From: Cryobacterium psychrophilum
Lineage (GTDB): Bacteria; Actinomycetota; Actinomycetes; Actinomycetales; Microbacteriaceae
Assembly (NCBI RefSeq): GCF_004365915.1
Contig: NZ_SODI01000001.1
Location: 1,550,001-1,614,000 of the forward strand
Length of the DNA stretch: 64,000 bases
Direction: 5' to 3'
The position numbers and the translations under genes are program-made. Under the pieces are notes generated by a model, which saw nothing but the letters and a program-made list of their open reading frames with translations, made no database searches and was not told the origin of the DNA. Below are positions 35,153-45,615 of the stretch, piece by piece; positions within the stretch are counted from its first letter, which is position 1; each line of letters begins with the position of its first letter.

Positions 35153-35938
35153 ATGACCCGCACCATGCACGTAGAAGCCATTGGAGTATCGCCGCTCAAG
35201 GGCGGCCGCCATCGCTCACGGGAGCACGTTCTGCTCCAAGCGGATGGCCCGGCCGATGACCGCGTCTTTGCGTTCATCGATCTTGATGCCGGACAGGTCG
35301 TGAAAACCGTTGAGCATCCGTCCCTGGTGACCTGCCAAGCGCATTGGGACGACGGGACGCTGTCGTTGCAGATCGACGGGCGGTGGATCACGGCGGCGCC
35401 CGAACCGAGCGGGCACCATGTCGCAATCGACTATTGGGGCCGAACCGCGTCACTGGAGGTGGTGGAGGGACCCTGGGCCCGGGAATTCTCCCGGTTCCTG
35501 GGACGAAAAGTGGTTCTCGCGCGGAGCGCCGCCGCGGGTGAGGTGGTCTACGGCGCTGCCGTCACAATCGCCACAACCAGTTCACTGCGTCACCTGACCC
35601 GCGAATCCGGAATCGATGTCGATGAGCGCCGGTTCCGGCCCACCTTCACGATTGACACCGGCGAGTGCGCTGCGCACGTTGAGGATGCCTGGGCCGGCCG
35701 CGAACTCGAGCTGGGGAGCGCTCGGCTGCTCGTGCAGGGCGGCGTTGCCCGCTGCGCGGTCATCGACCTCGACCCCGACACCGGCGCTCGCGGAACGAAC
35801 CTGCTGAAGACACTGGCCGGCTATCGACTGCAGTCCGGTGATATCAACTTCGCCGTCTACGCCGAGGTCGTACACCCGGGGATCGTTCACCGGGGCGACC
35901 GGGCCACGCTGCTGCCCGCGCCCATCCCGCGAACCTGA
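35153..35938 (+). CDS. MOSC-domain protein
   Basis: About 261 residues from the ATG at 35153 (35165 is an alternative). The N-terminal part VEAIGVSPLKGGRHRSREHVLLQADGPADDR and the C-terminal MOSC beta-barrel core (RFRPTFTIDTGECAAHVEDAW, LLVQGGVARCAVIDLDPDTG with the conserved Cys) match YcbX/YiiM-like molybdenum-cofactor sulfurase C-terminal proteins. Such proteins bind the molybdenum cofactor and reduce N-hydroxylated compounds or carry sulfur. No ferredoxin domain is attached. Confidence 0.82.
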   Translation: MTRTMHVEAIGVSPLKGGRHRSREHVLLQADGPADDRVFAFIDLDAGQVVKTVEHPSLVTCQAHWDDGTLSLQIDGRWITAAPEPSGHHVAIDYWGRTASLEVVEGPWAREFSRFLGRKVVLARSAAAGEVVYGAAVTIATTSSLRHLTRESGIDVDERRFRPTFTIDTGECAAHVEDAWAGRELELGSARLLVQGGVARCAVIDLDPDTGARGTNLLKTLAGYRLQSGDINFAVYAEVVHPGIVHRGDRATLLPAPIPRT

Positions 35939-35956
35939 CCACCGCCCTCGCGGTGG
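35939..35956. terminator. Small hairpin between convergent genes
   Basis: A 7-bp stem (ccaccgc, loop cctc, gcggtgg) lies directly after the MOSC stop codon and just before the convergent end of the ABC ATPase gene, fitting a bidirectional terminator. Confidence 0.5.
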
Positions 35957-35972
35957 CCAGGCTGGGCCGCGA

Positions 35973-36743
35973 TCACATCACACTGTCGAGGAATGCCTTG
36001 GTGCGCTCATTCTGCGGGTTGTCGAGCACGCTGGACGGCGGACCGGATTCCACGACGACTCCCCCGTCCATGAACACCACTTCGTCGGCCGCCCCGCGGG
36101 CGAACCCGATCTCGTGCGTCACCACGATCATCGTCATCCCATCGGCAGCGAGCTGACGCATGACATCGAGCACGTCCCCCACAAGTTCCGGGTCCAGCGC
36201 ACTGGTGGGCTCATCGAACAGCAACAGTTTCGGATCCATTGCCAGGGCCCTGGCAATGGCCACTCTCTGCTGCTGCCCACCGGACAGCTGCGCCGGGTAG
36301 GAGGCGGCGTGGTCGGCCAGACCCACCCGATCAAGCAGCTCCAGGCCCCTGGCGTTCGCGGTCTGCTTGGGCAGTCGCCGCACCCCCGTGGGTGCCGCCG
36401 TGATGTTTTCGAGCGCCGTCATGTGCGGGAACAGGTTGAACCGCTGGAACACCATGCCGATGTCGCGGCGCTGCCTGGCCACTTCCCGGGGGTTCATCTC
36501 GTAGATCCGGTTGCGCCGTTCGGCGTAGCCGACCAGTTCTCCGGCCACCGAGATTCGCCCGCCATCGACCCGTTCCAGATGGTTGATGCAGCGCAGGAAC
36601 GTCGACTTACCCGAGCCGGAAGGGCCGAGAAGACACATCACCTGGCCGGCGTCGACGGTCAGGGAAATTCCCTTCAGCACCTGGACTGCCCCATAGTGCT
36701 TGCGAACCTTCACAGCGGAGAGCAGCGGTTCAGTCCTGGTCAT
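35973..36743 (-). CDS. Polar amino-acid ABC transporter ATPase (GlnQ-like)
   Basis: The 256-residue ATPase shows Walker A LLGPSGSGKSTFLRC, the signature LSGGQQQRVAIARAL, Walker B LLLFDEPTSALDPE and the switch His in IVVTHEIGFARG. The NMVFQRFNLFPHMT-like Q-loop is typical of the PAAT family. It is the last gene of the leftward operon and overlaps the permease by ATGA (36740-36743). It energises import of an amino acid or derivative delivered by one or both binding proteins encoded upstream. Confidence 0.93.
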   Translation of the reverse strand: MTRTEPLLSAVKVRKHYGAVQVLKGISLTVDAGQVMCLLGPSGSGKSTFLRCINHLERVDGGRISVAGELVGYAERRNRIYEMNPREVARQRRDIGMVFQRFNLFPHMTALENITAAPTGVRRLPKQTANARGLELLDRVGLADHAASYPAQLSGGQQQRVAIARALAMDPKLLLFDEPTSALDPELVGDVLDVMRQLAADGMTMIVVTHEIGFARGAADEVVFMDGGVVVESGPPSSVLDNPQNERTKAFLDSVM

Positions 36744-37774
36744 CGTTCATCCGCCTTATCTGTCGTTGTCGCCGCTTGTGTCGCGGCCGACCTTCCTGTC
36801 ACGGCCGTGGCTTGCGTCCCGGTCGTCGTTCGTGCCGGGCGCAGTGCGCTCCACACTCGTTCCAGCGGCGTCCGAGGCCGCTGTCGTGCATTGCCACGCC
36901 CGTAATGACGTTCCAGGTAGTACTGGGGAATCGAGAGCACCGACGTGAGGAACAGGTACCAGCAGCTGACGACCACGAGCAGTTCCACCTGGCGGAGGTT
37001 CTGCGACGAGATCTGAGTGGCCACCGTGTACAGCTCGAGCACGGCGATCACCGACAGGAGCGACGTGTTCTTCAGCATCGAAATTGTCTCGTTGCCCATG
37101 GGCGGGATGATGACACGCATGGCCTGCGGCAGAATCACCTTGAACAGGGTCAACGCCGGGCTCATGCCCACCGAGTACGCCGCCTCATGCTGCCCCTCGT
37201 CCACGGAGAGCATCCCGGCGCGCACAATCTCTGCCGAGTACGCCGCCTGGTTCAACGTCAACGCCAGCAGCCCGGCCGTGAACGCCGGAATCAGGGTGTT
37301 GGTGTCGATGGAGAAGAGGTTGAGATCGGTGAACGGCACGCCCAGGGTGATCTGGGAGTACAGCAGACCGAGGTACCCCCAGAAGACGATCTGGATCAGC
37401 AGCGGAGTGCCGCGGAAGATCCAGACGTACAGCCACGCGAGGGAGTTCATGACCGGGTTCGTCGACAGTCGCATGACCGCGAGGATCACGGCCAGGATTG
37501 TCGACACGATCATCGAGACGACGGTGAGCACCAGGGTGAGCACCACGCCATCGAGGATGCGGTTGTTGAAGAGGTACTCGCTGATGGTCGAATGGTCAAT
37601 GTTCTCGTTCTCCCACAACGACGTCGCGAGGGCCACGAACGCGCCGCCGAGCACCACCGCAGCAGCCCAGCGCCACGGATGGCGAAGCGGCACGGCAACG
37701 ATGTCGTCAGGATCAACGTCGGCCGCAGTCACATCCGACGGGCGCTTGGGCGCAATTACTCCGTTGTTCATCAT
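36740..37774 (-). CDS. Polar amino-acid ABC transporter permease
   Basis: The 344-residue permease has a HisM-type domain: VLTLVLTVVSMIVSTILAVILAVMR, VWIFRGTPLLIQIVFWGYLG, and the EAA loop GMLSVDEGQHEAAYSVGMSPALTLFKVILPQA. The N-terminal extension of about 70 residues and the Thr/Ala-rich tail of about 40 are longer than in enteric relatives but usual in actinobacteria. The start with GGAAAG upstream is chosen; it lies 4 bp after the end of the binding-protein gene. As the only permease gene of the operon it presumably forms a homodimer. Confidence 0.92.
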   Translation of the reverse strand: MMNNGVIAPKRPSDVTAADVDPDDIVAVPLRHPWRWAAAVVLGGAFVALATSLWENENIDHSTISEYLFNNRILDGVVLTLVLTVVSMIVSTILAVILAVMRLSTNPVMNSLAWLYVWIFRGTPLLIQIVFWGYLGLLYSQITLGVPFTDLNLFSIDTNTLIPAFTAGLLALTLNQAAYSAEIVRAGMLSVDEGQHEAAYSVGMSPALTLFKVILPQAMRVIIPPMGNETISMLKNTSLLSVIAVLELYTVATQISSQNLRQVELLVVVSCWYLFLTSVLSIPQYYLERHYGRGNARQRPRTPLERVWSALRPARTTTGTQATAVTGRSAATQAATTTDKADER

Positions 37775-37778
37775 CAGG

Positions 37779-38711
37779 TCACTTTCCGAGGTTGAGTCCG
37801 GCAGCGTCGACCGCATAGTCGCCCAGGTCGTACTTCTCGAGAATCTCCTGGTAGCTGCCGTCCGCGATGACCGACTTCAGGGCGAGCAGGAGGGCCTCGG
37901 ACAGTTCGGCGTCTGCCTTCAGAACACCGATCCCGGTGTAGACCGGGTTGTACCCTGCCGGGTTCTCCGGGTCTCTGACCATGTCAAACATCGTGCCGCC
38001 ACCGGCCGTCTGTGCGGCATACGCTGCGACGGCCGAGTCGACGACATCGGCCACAGCCTTGCCGCTTCGAACGGCCGTTTGCACGTCGGTCTCGAGCGGG
38101 AGCTCCACCACGCCAATCGGGCCGTCGCCGAGTGACGCGCACTGGTCGTCATAGCTGTGCAGAATCTGCGCCTGAACGGTGGCCTTCTGTACCGCGACGT
38201 CCTTGCCGCAGAGGTCAAGCACGCCGGTGATGTTCTCGGGGTTCCCCTTCATCACCAGGATGGAGAAACCGGCATGGAAGTAGTCGACGAAGTCGAGGGT
38301 CTCCTGCCTGGCCTGGGTGTCGTTCAGCCCGGCGATGATGATGTCGTGCTTTCCGGACTGCAGCGACGGAATGATGCTGTCGAACTGCTGCTGGCGCATG
38401 TCCACCTGCACGCCGAGTTTCGCGCCGAGGGCGTTGGCGAGGTCAACGTCAAAGCCCGTCAGTTTCTGGTTGTCGTCAAACATCTCCATCGGCGGGTAGA
38501 TGCCCGTCGCGGCATTGATCACACCGGCGTCAGCGTATTTCGCGGGAAGCGCTGCCGCGGCCGCCGCATCCACATCGCCGGCCGATCCGGAACCAGCCGG
38601 TACGGCAGTGGGGTCGGGAGTGGCCGCGCACGCTGACAGGGCCAGCATGCTGGCGAAACCCAGGGACACGGCGATCTTCCATGACGACCGGTTGCTGTGG
38701 GTGGTTCTCAT
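37779..38711 (-). CDS. Amino-acid ABC transporter substrate-binding lipoprotein, paralogue 1
   Basis: The 310-residue lipoprotein has a signal with lipobox LALSAC (Cys about residue 28) and a SBP_bac_3 fold: ATGIYPPMEMFDDNQKLTGFDVDLANALG, DIIIAGLNDTQARQETLDFVDYF, and the C-terminal DGSYQEILEKYDLGDYA. It is closely similar over its whole length to the protein at 40251-41183, so the operon contains a gene duplication with an amidohydrolase gene between the copies. GGAGAACAACA precedes the ATG. Substrate is probably an N-modified or polar amino acid, judged from the operon. Confidence 0.9.
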   Translation of the reverse strand: MRTTHSNRSSWKIAVSLGFASMLALSACAATPDPTAVPAGSGSAGDVDAAAAAALPAKYADAGVINAATGIYPPMEMFDDNQKLTGFDVDLANALGAKLGVQVDMRQQQFDSIIPSLQSGKHDIIIAGLNDTQARQETLDFVDYFHAGFSILVMKGNPENITGVLDLCGKDVAVQKATVQAQILHSYDDQCASLGDGPIGVVELPLETDVQTAVRSGKAVADVVDSAVAAYAAQTAGGGTMFDMVRDPENPAGYNPVYTGIGVLKADAELSEALLLALKSVIADGSYQEILEKYDLGDYAVDAAGLNLGK

Positions 38712-38765
38712 TGTTGTTCTCCAAACGTGTGTGTGTTGCGTGACTTCAACGGAGTGAAAAGAGGT

Positions 38766-40247
38766 TCAGAGGCGGTTGTGTGTGAAACGCCCGGCAAGCA
38801 GGGTCGCGGCGACGGGCATCCGCCTCAGTTCGTCGACGGATGCCGTGAACGGGTCGCTCTCGCAGATCGCCAGGTCGGCAACATCACCGACGGCGATGCC
38901 GGAACGCCCGCGGGCAGAGGCCGCGAGCGCCGCCGCCCGGGAAACCGACTGTTCGGGATGCCACGGCTCGCGCCCATCCCTGGTGCGTCCCACGGCGGAT
39001 GCCATTGCCGCCCACGGATCGAGCGGCGCCACCGGGGCGTCCGAACCGAATGCCAGCTCCACACCGGCTTCGAGCAGGCTGGCGAGGGGAAACGCCCGGT
39101 CTGTCTCGCCAGCCCAGAACCGGTCGGCCACATCCCGGTCGTCCATGGCATGTTCGGGTTGCACGCTGGCCACAACACCGAGTGTTGCGAAGCGTTCGAT
39201 ATCGGCACGCATCAGCAACTGCGCATGCTCGATGCTCCCGGTACAGCCGACGGCCTCGAAGGCGTCAAGCGCGTAGCTGTTGGCCCGGTCGCCGATGGCG
39301 TGCACGGCAGGACGGATTCCGGCCTGCGCCGCCATCTGCATCCAGGACTGCAGTTCCCGTGGCGGCACGGTCGATAACCCCCGGGAGCCGCAGGTGTCTT
39401 CCAAGCCGGGGTATTCGTTGACGCAGAGAGCCGTGCGGGTGTTGAGCGATCCATCGGTCAGAACCTTGAATGGCCCGACCGTGAGGAGGCCGTCCGTGCC
39501 GTCGATGACGGCGCCCGTTCTAAGCCCCAGCTCAATCGCGCGTTGCAGATGCGCGGCGTAGATGCCGAACTCCACCCGCAGCGACGTGCTGCCCCCGTTG
39601 ATGCGGCGGCGCCACGTGTCGAGGTTCCAGGCCATCTCCAGATCCACGATTCCCACGACACCCCGCGCGGCGGCGTTCACCGCCGCGCCCTCCGCCCAGG
39701 CATCCATGCTTTCGTCAGCAACCGTGCCGATGGCCGACACCACGGTGAAGCACTCGTCCTCCCGCAGGAGTCCTGTCGGGTGGTCGGCGAACCCGTGAAG
39801 GGCCAGCGCGGCGGAGTTCAGCCAGCAGCAGTGCAGATCGCCGCTGACCAGTATCACCGGAACGGTCGGTGATGCGGCGTCCAGCACCGCGCGGCTCGGG
39901 GCATCCGGCCAGAGTCCGTCGCGAAAGCCGCTGCCGACGATGGTGTCCGACGGTGCGACGTGTGCGGCGTGCCCGGCCACCAGCGCGGCCGTCTCCGCGG
40001 CGCTGCCGCATGTGGAGAGGTCGAGTCGGCTGGAATTCTGCGCCCACTGACTGAAGTGCACATGGTTGTCCCAGAGACCCGGGACCAGCCAGCGTCCGTC
40101 GAGATCGACGGATTCGGCCGACGACAGGGCGCCGGTGCTTCGCGAAATGCGCCGCAGCACGGGCTCATTGGTGTCGGTGTCGCCGATCTCGACGTCCCAG
40201 CTGACCTCGCTGCCCGGAAGCCTGCCGTTGCGCAGAACGAGCGTCAT
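38766..40247 (-). CDS. YtcJ-like amidohydrolase (amidohydrolase 3 family)
   Basis: The 493-residue protein belongs to the metal-dependent amidohydrolase superfamily. It has the N-terminal HxH in LVPGLWDNHVHFSQWA, an active-site Lys in FKVLTDGSLNTRTAL, His in PAVHAIGDRANSY and SIEHAQLL, and the Asp in AFGSDAPVAPLDPW. A C-terminal beta-sandwich completes it. Relatives hydrolyse N-formyl or N-acyl amino compounds and exoenzyme-type amides. Its place between two amino-acid binding proteins suggests it removes the substituent of the imported compound. The ATG has only a weak AAGG site close to it. Confidence 0.85.
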   Translation of the reverse strand: MTLVLRNGRLPGSEVSWDVEIGDTDTNEPVLRRISRSTGALSSAESVDLDGRWLVPGLWDNHVHFSQWAQNSSRLDLSTCGSAAETAALVAGHAAHVAPSDTIVGSGFRDGLWPDAPSRAVLDAASPTVPVILVSGDLHCCWLNSAALALHGFADHPTGLLREDECFTVVSAIGTVADESMDAWAEGAAVNAAARGVVGIVDLEMAWNLDTWRRRINGGSTSLRVEFGIYAAHLQRAIELGLRTGAVIDGTDGLLTVGPFKVLTDGSLNTRTALCVNEYPGLEDTCGSRGLSTVPPRELQSWMQMAAQAGIRPAVHAIGDRANSYALDAFEAVGCTGSIEHAQLLMRADIERFATLGVVASVQPEHAMDDRDVADRFWAGETDRAFPLASLLEAGVELAFGSDAPVAPLDPWAAMASAVGRTRDGREPWHPEQSVSRAAALAASARGRSGIAVGDVADLAICESDPFTASVDELRRMPVAATLLAGRFTHNRL

Positions 40248-40250
40248 GCC

Positions 40251-41183
40251 TTACGACCCGAGGTTCAGGCCGGCTTTGTCGATGGCGTAGTCACCCAGGT
40301 CGTACTTCTCAAGAATCTCCTGGTAGCTGCCATCGGCAATGATCGAGTCGAGCGCCAGCACGAGCGCACTGGTCAACTCGGAGTCCTTCTTGAGCACGCC
40401 GATCCCGGTGAAGACCGGGTTGTATCCGTTGGGGTTGGCGGGGTCGCGCACCACCTCGAACATCTCGCCGTCGCCGGCGGTCTGTGCGGAGTAGGCGGCC
40501 ACGGCGGAGTCGACGACGTCGGCAATGGCTTTGCCGGAGCGCACGGCGGTCTGCACGTCGGTCTCGCTGGGCAGTTCGGCGATCTTGATCGGGCCCGGCC
40601 CGGCCTGCGTGCACTGGTCGTCGTAGCCGCGCAGGATCTCGGCCTGGATCGTCGCCTTCGACACGGCGACGTCCTTGCCGCACAGATCGAGCACGGTCGT
40701 GATCTTCTCGGGGTTGCCGGCCAGCACCATGATCGAGAATCCGGCGTGGAAGTAGTCGACGAAGTCGAGCGTTTCCTGCCGCTTGGCGGTGTCGTTCATG
40801 CCGGACATGATGATGTCGCTCTGTCCGGATTGCAGGGCCGGGATGTTGGTGGCGAATGCCTGCTTCTCCAACGTCAGGGGCACACCCAGCTTGACGCCGA
40901 GGGCCTGTGCGAGGTCGAAGTCCAGTCCGGTGAGGTTCTGATCCTCATCGAGCATCTCCATGGGCGGGTAGGGATAGTCGGAAGCCACGCGGATGACACC
41001 GGCCTTCACGTATTTCTCCGGAAGCGCCGCTGCGGCGGCCGCATCGACCTCGCCGACAGGCGCCTCCTCAACGGGAGCGGCCGGCGCGGGGGCTGCGGAG
41101 CAGGCACTCAAAGCGAGAGTTGCCGCAAACCCGAGTGATACCGCTATCTGCCACGATGGCCGACTGCGCTGTGGTGTGTTCAT
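40251..41183 (-). CDS. Amino-acid ABC transporter substrate-binding lipoprotein, paralogue 2
   Basis: The 310-residue lipoprotein begins NTPQRSRPSWQIAVSLGFAATLALSAC split by the signal cleavage (lipobox LALSAC). It keeps the SBP_bac_3 pattern with SDYPYPPMEMLDEDQNLTGL, DIIMSGMNDTAKRQETLDFV and DGSYQEILEKYDLGDYAID. The ATG at 41183 follows GAGGAGAGCAGC and is preferred to the one 15 bases earlier. Differences to paralogue 1 cluster in the stretch after GLDFDLAQALG and around the central hinge, so ligand range may differ. Confidence 0.9.
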   Translation of the reverse strand: MNTPQRSRPSWQIAVSLGFAATLALSACSAAPAPAAPVEEAPVGEVDAAAAAALPEKYVKAGVIRVASDYPYPPMEMLDEDQNLTGLDFDLAQALGVKLGVPLTLEKQAFATNIPALQSGQSDIIMSGMNDTAKRQETLDFVDYFHAGFSIMVLAGNPEKITTVLDLCGKDVAVSKATIQAEILRGYDDQCTQAGPGPIKIAELPSETDVQTAVRSGKAIADVVDSAVAAYSAQTAGDGEMFEVVRDPANPNGYNPVFTGIGVLKKDSELTSALVLALDSIIADGSYQEILEKYDLGDYAIDKAGLNLGS

Positions 41184-41260
41184 TGCTGCTCTCCTCATTG
41201 CTGTGCGGAGCCGGGCGTCGTTGCCCGGCTGTGCGGTCTAGCGTGCGTAGGGCCGTGGCC

Positions 41261-42370
41261 CTAGAAAGCGATGTCGGTTCGTGATGTCGTGACGTTGGCC
41301 AGGGCATCCGGCAGAACGTCGACGCCGATCCCCGGCCCGGTCGGCACCGGAAGGCACCCGTCCTGCAACACGAACGGCGCGGTCAGGTCCTGGGCGTAGT
41401 AGCGGCTGGAAGCCGACGTGTCACCGGGGAGGGTGAAGTTGGGCAACCCGGCGAGCGCAACATTCGCCGCACGCCCAATCCCCGTTTCGAGCATCCCTCC
41501 ACACCACACGGGCACCCCATGCGCGGCTGCAACATCGTGGATGCGCCTGGCTTCCAGAAAACCGCCGACCCGAGCCGGCTTCACGTTGATGATGCTGCAG
41601 GCACCGAGAACGATGGCGGCGGCGGCGTCACGGGCGGATTCGATCGACTCGTCGAGGCAGATCGGTGTCGTCATCAGCTTGGCCAGGCTGGCGTGGCCGA
41701 GGATGTCGTCCTCCGGCAGCGGCTGCTCGATCAGCAGCAGGTTGAAGGGGTCGAGCCGGGCAAGGTGCCGGGCATCGGCCAGCGAATAGGCGGTGTTGGC
41801 GTCAACCTGCAGCAGGATGTCGTCGCCGAAACGTTCGCGCACGGCACGAACCGGCTCGATGTCCCATCCCGGTTCGATCTTCAGCTTGATCCGCAGGTAT
41901 CCCTCGGCGAGGTACTCGCCGACGACGTCGAGCAGACCATCAATCGACTCCATGATTCCGACGGAGACACCGGACGGCACCGTCTGATTGACCGCACCCA
42001 GGTGCTGGCCGAAGGACACGCCACGTTCCTTGAGCTGCGCGTCGAGGATGGCGGTCTCCAGCACGGCTTTGGACATCGGATGCCCCTTCACCGGCGCCAG
42101 CGTCGTCGCGACATGTTCGGCGGTCAGTCCGTCTCCGACAGCCCGAAGCCGGGGAAGCAGATGATCGCGGATCACGAGGTCGCAGCCGTCGAGAAACTCG
42201 GAGCTGTAGAGCGGATCGGGTTCGGCGGCGCATTCTGCCCAGCCCTCGGCGTTGGCGGTCGTTACGCGCACAATCGTCATTTCGCGGTGGTCGATCTGTC
42301 CGAATGACGTACGGAAGGGGCGCACCAGAGGCATCGTCACCCGGCGTAGTTCAACATTCTCGATCTTCAT
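41261..42370 (-). CDS. N-acyl(N-succinyl)amino-acid racemase, enolase superfamily
   Basis: The 369-residue muconate-lactonizing-subgroup enzyme shows the acid-base Lys in RIKLKIEPGWD, metal ligands Asp in LLQVDANTAYS, Glu in LLIEQPLPEDD and Asp in ICLDESIES, and the second Lys in IINVKPARVGGF. A C-terminal cap segment is WCGGMLETGIGRAANVALAGLP. This pattern is shared by o-succinylbenzoate synthase and N-succinylamino-acid racemase. No menaquinone genes are nearby, whereas an acyltransferase/deacylase gene overlaps it by ATGA, so racemisation of N-acyl amino acids is more likely. The ribosome site GGAGGACAGCA lies in the end of the upstream gene. Confidence 0.85.
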   Translation of the reverse strand: MKIENVELRRVTMPLVRPFRTSFGQIDHREMTIVRVTTANAEGWAECAAEPDPLYSSEFLDGCDLVIRDHLLPRLRAVGDGLTAEHVATTLAPVKGHPMSKAVLETAILDAQLKERGVSFGQHLGAVNQTVPSGVSVGIMESIDGLLDVVGEYLAEGYLRIKLKIEPGWDIEPVRAVRERFGDDILLQVDANTAYSLADARHLARLDPFNLLLIEQPLPEDDILGHASLAKLMTTPICLDESIESARDAAAAIVLGACSIINVKPARVGGFLEARRIHDVAAAHGVPVWCGGMLETGIGRAANVALAGLPNFTLPGDTSASSRYYAQDLTAPFVLQDGCLPVPTGPGIGVDVLPDALANVTTSRTDIAF

Positions 42371-44454
42371 TGCTGTCCTCCTGTTGCGAGCCGATACCAA
42401 CCTGCTCGAGTGACCCCGCGGGCGATGTGTCCCGAGGAAAAATTTGTGGCGAACACGTTCCGTGCAAAGCGTCGCCAGTCCGCGGCAAGGATCGGGCTCT
42501 GCCCGCGGAGCCCGACGATGTCAGTCGGCACCCGGCACCAGAGCGCTCCAGCCGTCTCGACCAACGCCGGCTGGTCGTCGGGGCCAAGCTCCCGCACCTG
42601 ATCGGGCGAGAACGGGGGCAAATCCGTGGTTTCCGGCCGTCCCTCGCTGCACGCGATGGCCAGGTCCGACGTCAGCGGCCAGTGGGCCGTCAACCGGTCG
42701 CTCTCATCGTTGGCGTTGATCGACCCGCTCATCGCACCATAGAAGTTCCGCGTGTACTCGGACGAGTGGGCGCCGAGCTTGGTCAGGTTGAATCGGGCGT
42801 TGCGACTGACCAGGGGGTCGAAGGTCCAGCGGATGGCTTCGATGTCACGCGCCAGCGCCCACGCCCGCTGATGCTGCTTGAGCGCAAACCCCACGCCCTG
42901 ATCGGCGTTCCCCGGGAGGACTCCGGCGAGCAGGGAGTATGCCGACACCGCCCCCGGCGACACGACGAGCACCGCGACGCCACAGAGGATTCCGGCCCGG
43001 TCGTAGGCGGCCGTCACGGCGCTACCCGCATGGCCGAGGCTGCGCAGGAGTTCTGCGTTCATCGGACTCTCGTCGGGCTCAAGGCCCCAGACCGAAACGA
43101 GCAGCGCCGAGATCGGTTGCAGGCGGTCCATCTCGGTCTCGTCCCGGATGCTCACCCCGGCGAGCGCCGCAGCCCGGGCTGCGGCGGCACCGGCCTGGCG
43201 AGCGAGCGGATGGCCGGTCTCCAGGAGAGGGCTGGTGTTCAGGAGAGGGCTGGTGTTCGCGGCCTCCGCTGCGGGAGCCGGCCGCGCGGAGTCCGAGAGC
43301 AGCAGGCCCGCGGCGAGCGCGGCGCGTTCGACCAGACCCGATCGGCTGGTGTGTTCGTGCCGGGCGTGCGCGCCGTCACCGACCGCCCCCAGACCATCGA
43401 GTACCGGTACGCCGAGCGCGGCCACGAAGTTCGCATCGCTGGCCCCGCCCACGGAGACTTCAGCCAGCTCAACCCCGAGCATCCGCCCGACGCGGGCCGC
43501 CCTCTCGAAGAGCACCCCGATCTCGGCGGTGCGCTCGAACGGTGGCCGGTTCCAGTCGGTATCGACGCTGAAGGTCACGTGCGGGTCGCTCGTGGTCAGG
43601 CCGGTGAAGCAGGCGTCAATGCGTGCCATTTCGGCGGCGCTCGTCACGCGAACGTCAACACATGTCTCGGCGGTACCGGCCGAGACGTTGCTGCGTGACC
43701 CGCCGGTGACCAGGCCGGCGTTCACGGTCGTGCCCGCGGCGTGGTCGGCGAATCCCACAATCCGGGTGATGGCCTCTGCGATCGCGTGCACCGCACTGGC
43801 ACCATCGAGCGGGTTCAGGCCGGCATGAGCTTCGATGCCGGTGGCGGTCACGGTGAAGAGTCCGACGCCCTTCCTCCCCGTTTTCAAGGCGCCGGCCGCG
43901 CTTCCCTCGAAGACGTAGACGGCGGGCATCCCGCTCGTTTCGGACTCGATGATGGCGCGGGAGGCGTGGCTGCCGGTCTCTTCATCACCGGTGAGGATCA
44001 GCCGGGTGTTCGGCGTGAAATCGGCGGTTTGTTGTAGCGCCCGGACGCCCCAGACCGCCTGTACGAGACCGGCTTTCATATCGAAGATGCCCGGGCCGGA
44101 CAGTCGCTCGTCATCGAATTGCAGCGGCCACGTCGTCGTTGTTCCCGCGGGCCACACCGTGTCGTAGTGCGCGAGCAGCACCGACTCGGGGGCGCGGCCG
44201 AAGTCGAGCACCGCGATGTTGCCAAGATCGGCGCTTTCAAAGATTTCTTCGCGGGTGGGCATTCCGATGCGGGCGTAGATCCAGTCGAGGATGAGCGGGA
44301 AGGCACGGTCGAGCAGACCCTTGTCGTCGCTGGGGGTTTCCCACCGCACGTACGCCTCCAGGTCATCCACCATGTCGTCGCGATGGGCCGTGAGATAGGC
44401 GAGCGCGTCGCTGATGATGAGACTGGGATCGGCCGCAGCTGCACGTTTAGACAT
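42367..44454 (-). CDS. M20 metallopeptidase fused to COG3375-type GNAT-like domain
   Basis: The chain has 695 residues from the ATG at 44454; a GTG at 44487 is possible. Residues about 20-390 are an M20/carboxypeptidase-G2-like deacylase: metal ligands in LLAHYDTVWPAG, FDMKAGLVQAVWG, TGDEETGSHASRA and ARHEHTSRSG, with the dimerisation lid in between. A linker with NTSPLL twice in a row follows. Residues about 425-690 form a GNAT-superfamily acetyltransferase-like domain (ISALLVSVWGLEP, GVGFALKQHQRAWALARDIE, FDPLVSRNARFNLTKLGA). In known D-to-L amino-acid conversion an N-succinyltransferase and an M20 desuccinylase are separate proteins; here they are joined and coupled to the racemase gene. 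Confidence 0.85.
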   Translation of the reverse strand: MSKRAAAADPSLIISDALAYLTAHRDDMVDDLEAYVRWETPSDDKGLLDRAFPLILDWIYARIGMPTREEIFESADLGNIAVLDFGRAPESVLLAHYDTVWPAGTTTTWPLQFDDERLSGPGIFDMKAGLVQAVWGVRALQQTADFTPNTRLILTGDEETGSHASRAIIESETSGMPAVYVFEGSAAGALKTGRKGVGLFTVTATGIEAHAGLNPLDGASAVHAIAEAITRIVGFADHAAGTTVNAGLVTGGSRSNVSAGTAETCVDVRVTSAAEMARIDACFTGLTTSDPHVTFSVDTDWNRPPFERTAEIGVLFERAARVGRMLGVELAEVSVGGASDANFVAALGVPVLDGLGAVGDGAHARHEHTSRSGLVERAALAAGLLLSDSARPAPAAEAANTSPLLNTSPLLETGHPLARQAGAAAARAAALAGVSIRDETEMDRLQPISALLVSVWGLEPDESPMNAELLRSLGHAGSAVTAAYDRAGILCGVAVLVVSPGAVSAYSLLAGVLPGNADQGVGFALKQHQRAWALARDIEAIRWTFDPLVSRNARFNLTKLGAHSSEYTRNFYGAMSGSINANDESDRLTAHWPLTSDLAIACSEGRPETTDLPPFSPDQVRELGPDDQPALVETAGALWCRVPTDIVGLRGQSPILAADWRRFARNVFATNFSSGHIARGVTRAGWYRLATGGQQ

Positions 44455-44525
44455 GACGACAGTCTTTGGCCCGTAGTGTTGATCCACCGAACAAGTGCTG
44501 AATCATTTCAGATGCGGAGGCGAGT

Positions 44526-45530
44526 ATGCCGGATTCTTACGTACCCGATGAGCTGGACATCGCCATCGTCGACAGTCTCAGCATCCACCCGCGCGCCAGC
44601 TGGATCGCCGTTGCCGACGCTCTCGGGAGCAATGCGTCAACGGTGGCACGCCGGTGGGATCGGTTGAAACTTCTCGGGCTCGCGTGGACGCTCTGCGTGC
44701 GTGACTACACGGCGCTGGCGGTGCAGGACCATCTCGATATTCGCTGCCGCCCCGGCTTCATCGAGGAGCTCGCCGCCCTGTTCTGCGAGGTGAAGTGTTG
44801 CCTCACGGTGTCGGCGGTGTCCGGCAACGCCGACCTGCGCATCCTCGTCGATGTGCCGGATATCAGCTCCCTGCACGCCTTCATGAATCATGAGGTGTGG
44901 CGCAATCCCGGCATTGTGAGCGTTGAGCACAACATCGCGACGGAGGTCTTTCAAACCGCTCGCGGCTGGGTGTCCGGATCGTTGTCGCTCAGGCAGCGGA
45001 CGGCCCTGCGGCAGTCGATCACGGTGCACCGGCCGGCGCTGGCCAGGCTGACGGCCAGGGAAGAGCAGATCGCGATCATCCTGCAACGTGATGCTCGAAC
45101 ATCGGCCAGCGACATCGCCGACGAGCTGGGCATGAGTCTTCCGTCGGCCAGCCGACAGATCAGCAGGTTGATCGCGTCGAACAAGATCGAGCTGCGCGCT
45201 GAAGCCGCTCACGCGGTGGTGGGCTGGCCGATCTCGGTGTGCCTGTATTCGCAGGTGAAACCGGGCCGGCTGCGCGCGGCAGCGGCCGGAGCGGCCAAGC
45301 TGCCCCGGTCCCGTGCCACCCACACGGTCGTGAGCCCGCGGTGGAACCTGATGACAATCTATTGGATGCGCGATCTGGCTGACATCCATCGGATCGAGGA
45401 AGCGCTGGAGACGTCAAACGAGTCATTGACCGTCGTGGCCAGGCAGGTCACCCTGAAGTCCTACAAACGCATGGGCATGATCTTCGATGCGAACGCGCGC
45501 GCCGTGCGCAATGTGCTGACGGACCTGTAG
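44526..45530 (+). CDS. Lrp/AsnC-like transcriptional regulator, double-module type
   Basis: The 334-residue protein starts after GCGGAGGCGAGT. It has two helix-turn-helix regions: IVDSLSIHPRASWIAVADALGSNASTVARRWDRL (split, residues 11-46) and IILQRDARTSASDIADELGMSLPSASRQISRL (split, about 178-215). Each is followed by an AsnC-type ligand-binding segment. Such tandem regulators sense amino acids. It is divergent from the M20-GNAT gene with 71 bp between, the normal place for control of the seven-gene operon. Confidence 0.85.
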   Translation: MPDSYVPDELDIAIVDSLSIHPRASWIAVADALGSNASTVARRWDRLKLLGLAWTLCVRDYTALAVQDHLDIRCRPGFIEELAALFCEVKCCLTVSAVSGNADLRILVDVPDISSLHAFMNHEVWRNPGIVSVEHNIATEVFQTARGWVSGSLSLRQRTALRQSITVHRPALARLTAREEQIAIILQRDARTSASDIADELGMSLPSASRQISRLIASNKIELRAEAAHAVVGWPISVCLYSQVKPGRLRAAAAGAAKLPRSRATHTVVSPRWNLMTIYWMRDLADIHRIEEALETSNESLTVVARQVTLKSYKRMGMIFDANARAVRNVLTDL

Positions 45531-45615
45531 CGAGGGACCACCCGGCGAAATGTCGCCAATGCGGCCGCTCAGCGGCAGACTTGAGGGCACCGGCACATTC
45601 TCAAAAGGAGAGCCC

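Follow-up and report, generated by a model that had tools for sequence, protein, structure and literature searches.

A fused M20 hydrolase-GNAT protein encoded beside an N-acylamino-acid racemase in Cryobacterium psychrophilum: a candidate variant of the three-activity D-to-L amino acid route

We analyzed a 64,000-nucleotide stretch of the Cryobacterium psychrophilum genome (contig NZ_SODI01000001.1; hereafter, the window) in which seven minus-strand genes lie in a row over positions 35973-44487, spaced by -38 to +62 bases. The first is a fused M20 hydrolase-GNAT gene (42367..44487), followed by the gene for an N-succinyl/N-acylamino-acid racemase of the NSAR/OSBS type (41261..42370, 369 amino acids). 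The remaining genes encode a family 3 solute-binding protein of the polar amino acid ABC importer type (40251..41198), an amidohydrolase (38766..40247; PF07969) whose nearest solved relatives are uncharacterised metal-dependent hydrolases, a second family 3 solute-binding protein that is a paralogue of the first (37779..38711), an amino-acid-type ABC permease (36740..37816) and an amino-acid-type ABC ATPase (35973..36743). A divergent AsnC/Lrp-type regulator of 334 amino acids with two helix-turn-helix stretches is encoded on the plus strand at 44526..45530. Domain matches bear out the initial annotation, which had described a seven-gene operon with its own amino acid importer and an Lrp-like regulator.

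The fused gene has 706 codons when read from a GTG at 44487 and 695 from an ATG at 44454. Its product is composed of an M20 (carboxypeptidase G2-like) domain (residues ~30-398; 43294..44400, minus strand), a linker (residues 399-430; 43198..43293, minus strand) and a GNAT-fold domain (residues 431-706; 42370..43197, minus strand) to which we presume the number COG3375 applies. Linker residues 405-421 have low confidence in the structure model, and the full-length model has a pTM of 0.62, which leaves the domain arrangement uncertain. The proposal that an M20 deacylase-family domain and a COG3375-type GNAT domain form a single chain is confirmed, and a second genome carries the same fusion. The M20 domain matched PF01546 (80.7 bits) and PF07687 (44.7 bits), both above cut-off; none of the 25 NCBIfam matches listed for this part exceeded its own cut-off. 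The nearest solved fold to the N-terminal half is carboxypeptidase G2 (CPG2; PDB 1cg2; E 2.5e-29, TM 0.81 on the target, 25% identity), an M20 family enzyme that, unlike the fusion, carries no C-terminal GNAT. Both the catalytic and dimerisation domains of M20 enzymes are present, and H107, D136, E169/E170, E194 and H374 align with CPG2. Borrowing roles from CPG2, we take H107, D109, D136, E169, E170, E194 and H374 to be the putative metal-binding and catalytic residues. The likely substrate of the fused M20 domain is an N-acyl-L-amino acid rather than the folate of carboxypeptidase G2.

The racemase gene overlaps the fusion gene, as had been annotated, with the fusion TGA and the racemase ATG sharing the sequence ATGA. 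Because an AGGAGG also precedes this ATG, translational coupling of the two genes is predicted. The racemase matched TIGR01928 with 287.7 bits against a cut-off of 200.65; the title of that model is itself o-succinylbenzoate synthase. The match to the Amycolatopsis NSAR extends over 365 residues at 525 bits, and the structures of the Amycolatopsis N-acyl/N-succinylamino-acid racemase (PDB 1sja, 4a6g, 5fjr, 7s8w), none of which covers the fused neighbor, are the nearest solved relatives. Two lysines (K164 and K264) and three acidic ligands (D190, E215 and D240) align with this enzyme. We assume that its catalytic and metal-ligand numbering carries over to the window's racemase, in which we also marked K162 and R267, the latter presumably at the NSAR-specificity position. 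The genome has a dedicated MenC elsewhere (PRK02901, 461 bits), located ~7 kb from menD, which rules out the menaquinone enzyme as the identity of the operon's racemase. The original assignment to the N-acylamino-acid racemase type therefore holds, since the protein groups with NSAR/OSBS enzymes and not with MenC. What promiscuous NSAR/OSBS racemases do in nature has been difficult to establish.

Structure prediction, which the initial annotation had proposed for the C-terminal domain, yielded a GNAT fold; the N-alpha-acetyltransferases Naa10, RimI and Ard1 top the VIA-align list, in which many rows are tied. When members of this GNAT family were compared with the profile libraries, one of five scored above the Pfam cut-off and none of four above that of NCBIfam; against PDB sequences, the GNAT profile reached an E of 0.19 at best. 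Nine of the 120 close relatives listed bear the name 'Chorismate synthase'. Standalone GNATs of the COG3375 type share the core motifs of the fused domain at 51-65% identity in Cryobacterium, Arthrobacter and relatives, and at 34-37% in Acidimicrobia-type MAGs. These proteins have their own genes, which often overlap or abut the racemase start and have no M20 attached, whereas the window's copy is fused. The fused domain retains 56 of 57 positions that are invariant across 11 standalone relatives; one further column, a Met in those 11 proteins, is without counterpart in the fusion. Nothing on COG3375 or this GNAT family was found in the literature searched, including excerpts of PMC8142540 and PMC8305020.

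The earlier reading had hinged on a CoA site in this domain, and its refuting outcome, a domain without any such site, did not arise, although the evidence is divided: the GNAT fold and the Gly-x-Gly of the P-loop (A528-D-Q-G-V-G533) are present, but the usual Arg/Gln is missing, the first residue being Ala. The consensus in the excerpted GNAT review is Gln/Arg-x-x-Gly-x-Gly/Ala (PMC4964394). The same excerpts describe the central Eis domain, which is without the P-loop Arg/Gln, as inactive, and also include an enzyme with an atypical P-loop that binds CoA (PMC4964394). Neither Arg nor Gln begins the P-loop in any of the 120 close relatives listed or in any of 22 loci (L009-L030), and Arg does so in all seven Acidimicrobia-type loci (L031-L037). 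Across 29 non-self loci from the phylum, the first residue is Arg/Gln in 15 and another residue in nine, with five unmatched by the search pattern. Residue 553 is Arg in the window, Ser in the second fusion-bearing genome and Thr in the 11 standalone relatives aligned; Arg is also found at this position in other relatives, namely P0241, P0242 and the genome's own second GNAT copy.

Intact M20-GNAT fusions are rare. A genus search of 57 genomes, which included the window's own (G000), found the fusion in two, G000 and G046, and the GNAT as a separate gene in 26 others. We also searched a set of 5.8 billion proteins by scoring the candidates that share most words, an approach by which remote fusions may be missed. 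In the whole-protein search, P0001 was the sole protein covering both domains among the best 120 of 991 hits listed; its source, Cryobacterium sp. CG_9.6, is the same genome as G046. Long proteins were also searched with the GNAT domain: 7,997 candidates of ~388-1,235 amino acids were scored and 12 proteins emerged, among which reading by eye identified no intact M20-GNAT chain besides P0001. The search for M20-COG3375 fusions that the initial annotation suggested thus produced one other intact case among the matches listed. We rejected P0243 and P0246, in which the GNAT occurs with glyoxalase-type domains, as well as an 801-residue open frame in G153, where the M20 and GNAT matches lie in different frames. 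P0247 (M20 and GNAT) and P0241 (GNAT and racemase) were also set aside, because by inspection each reads like frameshifted neighbors with an out-of-frame stretch near the junction. Literature searched on an M20/GNAT fusion with a racemase yielded nothing relevant by title, and the 10 of 796 matches listed for Cryobacterium with racemase or D-amino acid gave nothing useful.

Judged from codon comparison of the two fused genes, both domains are under purifying selection and the linker is drifting. The G000/G046 pair has a dN/dS of 0.079/0.97 over the M20 part and 0.17/0.88 over the GNAT part; over linker residues 401-428, where dN and dS are nearly the same, it is 0.811/0.86. In a FastTree phylogeny built from 33 sequences (17 taken from the genus search, 13 from more loci and three from outgroup loci), the two fused GNAT domains group as a single clade with support 1.0.

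The usual partner of this GNAT family is the racemase. A sample of 296 genomes from the phylum Actinomycetota contained 56 with a GNAT match (61 match rows), and we read the gene context of the 29 best-scoring non-self loci, which represent 10 families, together with G238, G147, G333, G281 and the genome's own second copy. A racemase lies within ~1.5 kb of the GNAT in 28 of the 29 loci and one gene away in the other (G092). Among the five lower-scoring copies, it is near the GNAT in G238, G147 and G333; the flanks read around the GNAT of G281 and the own second copy contain none. Within the genus, all 18 separate-gene loci read (out of 26 such genomes) have a racemase beside the GNAT. Another set of 29 loci comprises six from Cryobacterium and seven of Acidimicrobia type (L031-L037) with this arrangement, and 16 Arthrobacter-like loci without a close NSAR. 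Of these 16, 13 contain an enolase-type relative that scores lower (81-104 bits), and three contain none. One of the L031-L037 loci carries only the title 'Actinobacteria bacterium'. The GNAT also matched 45 plasmid records, and in four of the five plasmid regions read a racemase is within two genes. The order is SBP-permease-permease-ATPase-'menC'-GNAT in Sulfitobacter indolifex and S. mediterraneus and 'menC'-SBP-GNAT on D. radiodurans pMP1; a D. ficus plasmid has 'menC'-SBP-GNAT-M20 clustered, and the Microbacterium plasmid region has no annotated racemase of NSAR type near the GNAT. The pMP1 racemase was considered as the crystallised 1r0m and rejected, the match being 525 bits only. This regular proximity fits a role for the GNAT family as an N-acyltransferase that would feed the racemase.

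The M20 gene, in contrast, is an infrequent and not an obligate partner of the GNAT-racemase pair, since it adjoins the pair in only two of the 29 non-self phylum loci, and the M20 profile had no match in five wider separate-gene regions of the genus (L061, L063-L066). Wider flanks, read for 14 of the 29 loci, added one weak M20 match of 41 bits (G184). Two distant genomes, G153 and G269, carry M20, GNAT and racemase as three neighboring but separate genes whose order matches that of the fusion, and more distant relatives of the three cluster in G238 (L101) and G036 (L062). G006 has an M20 relative (72%) and the same divergent regulator (72%) on a contig apart from its GNAT operon, accompanied by transporter-like genes and a further racemase-like gene (45%). 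Given this Lrp-M20 unit and the adjacency in G153 and G269, the fusion looks as though an Lrp-M20 unit became joined to an operon of GNAT, racemase and importer genes.

The two fusion-bearing species carry the operon at different chromosomal sites. The block from regulator to ATPase, ~9.7 kb, aligns at ~82% DNA identity, and then the alignment stops. In G000, ~80 bp separate the sequences that flank the G046 operon, at a site more than 1.1 Mb away from the window's operon; in G046, ~36 bp separate the flanks of the window's operon, at a site ~2.2 Mb distant on the contig from the G046 operon. Each species therefore has an empty site for the other's operon. On one side in G046 there is ~1 kb more, with one further open reading frame, which is absent from the G000 empty site. 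Because flank identities (73-83%) are similar to that of the block, the operon may either have been inherited long ago and since relocated or have been acquired separately. No terminal repeats of at least 20 bp were found bounding the cassette.

Geobacillus kaustophilus is said to convert D- to L-amino acids by means of an NSAR, a GNAT succinyltransferase and an L-desuccinylase (reportedly Sakai et al. 2006). By family, the same three predicted activities (GNAT, NSAR and L-acyl hydrolase) are encoded in the window, and they are also co-encoded in D. ficus, G153 and G269. The window differs from G. kaustophilus in having GNAT and M20 in one chain and in adding an importer, an extra amidohydrolase and an Lrp-type regulator. 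An NSAR/L-succinylase pair from G. kaustophilus appears in an excerpt of PMC7431475. On this reading, the operon would import amino acids, D-forms included; the GNAT domain would acylate a D-amino acid from succinyl- or acetyl-CoA, the racemase would interconvert the N-acyl-D and N-acyl-L forms, and hydrolysis of the N-acyl-L form would fall to the M20 domain fused to the GNAT. Deacylation would make the route irreversible at a cost of one thioester, and a futile cycle would be avoided only if the GNAT prefers D- and the M20 L-substrates. That each of the three enzymes acts on such substrates is inferred, as are the acyl group, the direction, the stereoselectivity and the translational coupling. 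The fusion and its conservation, the GNAT fold, the intact M20 and racemase residues, the linkage to racemase and M20, the importer and the separate MenC favor this route; the P-loop Ala, Arg at residue 553, the infrequency of the M20 partner, the loci without a racemase and the pTM of the fusion model count against it. The D-to-L reading of the initial annotation is thus partly upheld: the three families are co-encoded and GNAT-racemase linkage is strong, but M20 is rarer and the P-loop is without Arg/Gln. On balance, we consider it somewhat probable that the operon imports amino acids and converts D- to L-forms through N-acylation, racemisation and deacylation.

The cassette could instead salvage imported N-acylated amino acids or dipeptide-like compounds, with racemase and M20 releasing L-amino acids and the GNAT serving in detoxification or only conditionally. 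Carboxypeptidase G2-type hydrolases are the closest relatives of the M20 part, the extra amidohydrolase is common to the operons of both fusion-bearing species, and the G006 M20 relative lies beside genes that, from sequence inspection only, seem to be transporters of the oligopeptide type. However, the importer encoded in the window belongs to the polar amino acid class, and linkage to the racemase is far tighter for the GNAT than for M20, which fits acylation as an entry step. We regard salvage as unlikely.

Slightly less likely still is a non-catalytic GNAT domain that gives the M20 deacylase structural support, holds its substrate or regulates it, while another enzyme acylates. The P-loop without Arg/Gln in the fusion, its listed relatives and L009-L030 would suit such a role, as would Arg at residue 553. 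The GNAT domain is also only 73% identical between the two fused species, compared with 96% for the racemase. Yet many genus genomes retain standalone relatives with this P-loop next to a racemase, and the GNAT domain has a dN/dS of ~0.19 overall and 0.11 over residues 480-600. Moreover, standalone copies outpace the racemase as well, by a mean of 22 points over 105 pairs. Degeneration after fusion was rejected because 73 versus 96% falls inside the spread of other pairs, in which GNAT identity is 69-97% where the racemase is 93-98.5%. Finally, although P0241 and P0247 look like frame-shifted read-throughs of adjacent genes, it is highly improbable that a sequencing or assembly frameshift created the window's fusion, because an independent genome has the same fusion with codon-level constraint on both sides of the junction, and the protein retains a normal M20 end and a normal GNAT start; the fusion is a confirmed observation.

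Returning to the D-to-L route, anatomy and linkage give good support to the M20-GNAT fusion beside a racemase as a variant of the known three-activity pathway, with chemistry that would follow from family membership; the new part is that the first and last steps would reside in one chain. More tentatively, and at somewhat less than even chances, we picture a bifunctional enzyme of opposite stereoselectivity (GNAT for D-, M20 for L-substrates) that, with its coupled racemase, would form a two-protein, CoA-driven D-to-L converter. This converter would be carried on a relocatable ~9.7-kb operon with its own importer and regulator, its GNAT drawn from a large family that usually partners a racemase. 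Joining the GNAT partner to a deacylase makes the fusion a 'Rosetta stone' from which every step of a single route can be read, and the route could be tested directly with two purified proteins. A chain that both adds and removes the same group would be unusual and could serve L-amino acid production. The fusion also points to a possible function for a widespread GNAT family that libraries hardly recognise.

The operon block that runs from the AsnC/Lrp-type regulator through the importer ATPase (window positions 35880-45614) was compared with loci L059, L133 and L134, and its chromosomal site differs between the two fusion-bearing species, C. psychrophilum and Cryobacterium sp. CG_9.6. Each species carries an empty site for the other's block, and these sites are near-seamless, at about 36 and 80 bp. 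No repeats of at least 20 bp were found bounding the block. Two paralogous solute-binding proteins enclose a PF07969 amidohydrolase in both operons; in the window, the amidohydrolase gene occupies 38766-40247 and the binding-protein genes 40251-41198 and 37779-38711. The window's amidohydrolase was unmatched by tblastn in six Cryobacterium loci and in L061 and L063-L066.

The C. psychrophilum genome also encodes a second member of the fusion's GNAT family (261 aa; locus L100, 6772-7557, contig C1 at about 2,340,800), with the P-loop R-S-H-G-V-G. No racemase match was detected near this gene within the 14 kb read. Among the GNAT relatives listed, 9 of 120 bear the UniRef or NCBI name "Chorismate synthase" (P0121, P0152, P0171, P0186, P0188, P0211, P0224, P0230 and P0239), which looks like a misannotation.

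Other domain combinations were also seen. Precomputed Pfam assignments place M20 and ketopantoate-reductase-type domains in one chain in the long proteins P0066 and P0076, and inspection of loci L060 and L062 revealed a gene resembling this ketopantoate-reductase type directly before M20. Glyoxalase-type domains are fused to the GNAT family in the metagenome proteins P0243 and P0246.

Sixteen Arthrobacter-like loci (L013-L015, L017-L026 and L028-L030) contain a GNAT family gene, and a close NSAR is absent beside it in all of them. In 12 of the 16, the GNAT gene is followed by a window-type importer and then by a divergent enolase-superfamily gene, whose product is about 28% identical to NSAR. 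This recurrent arrangement of GNAT gene, importer and divergent enolase-superfamily gene suggests that these loci represent a variant of the pathway.
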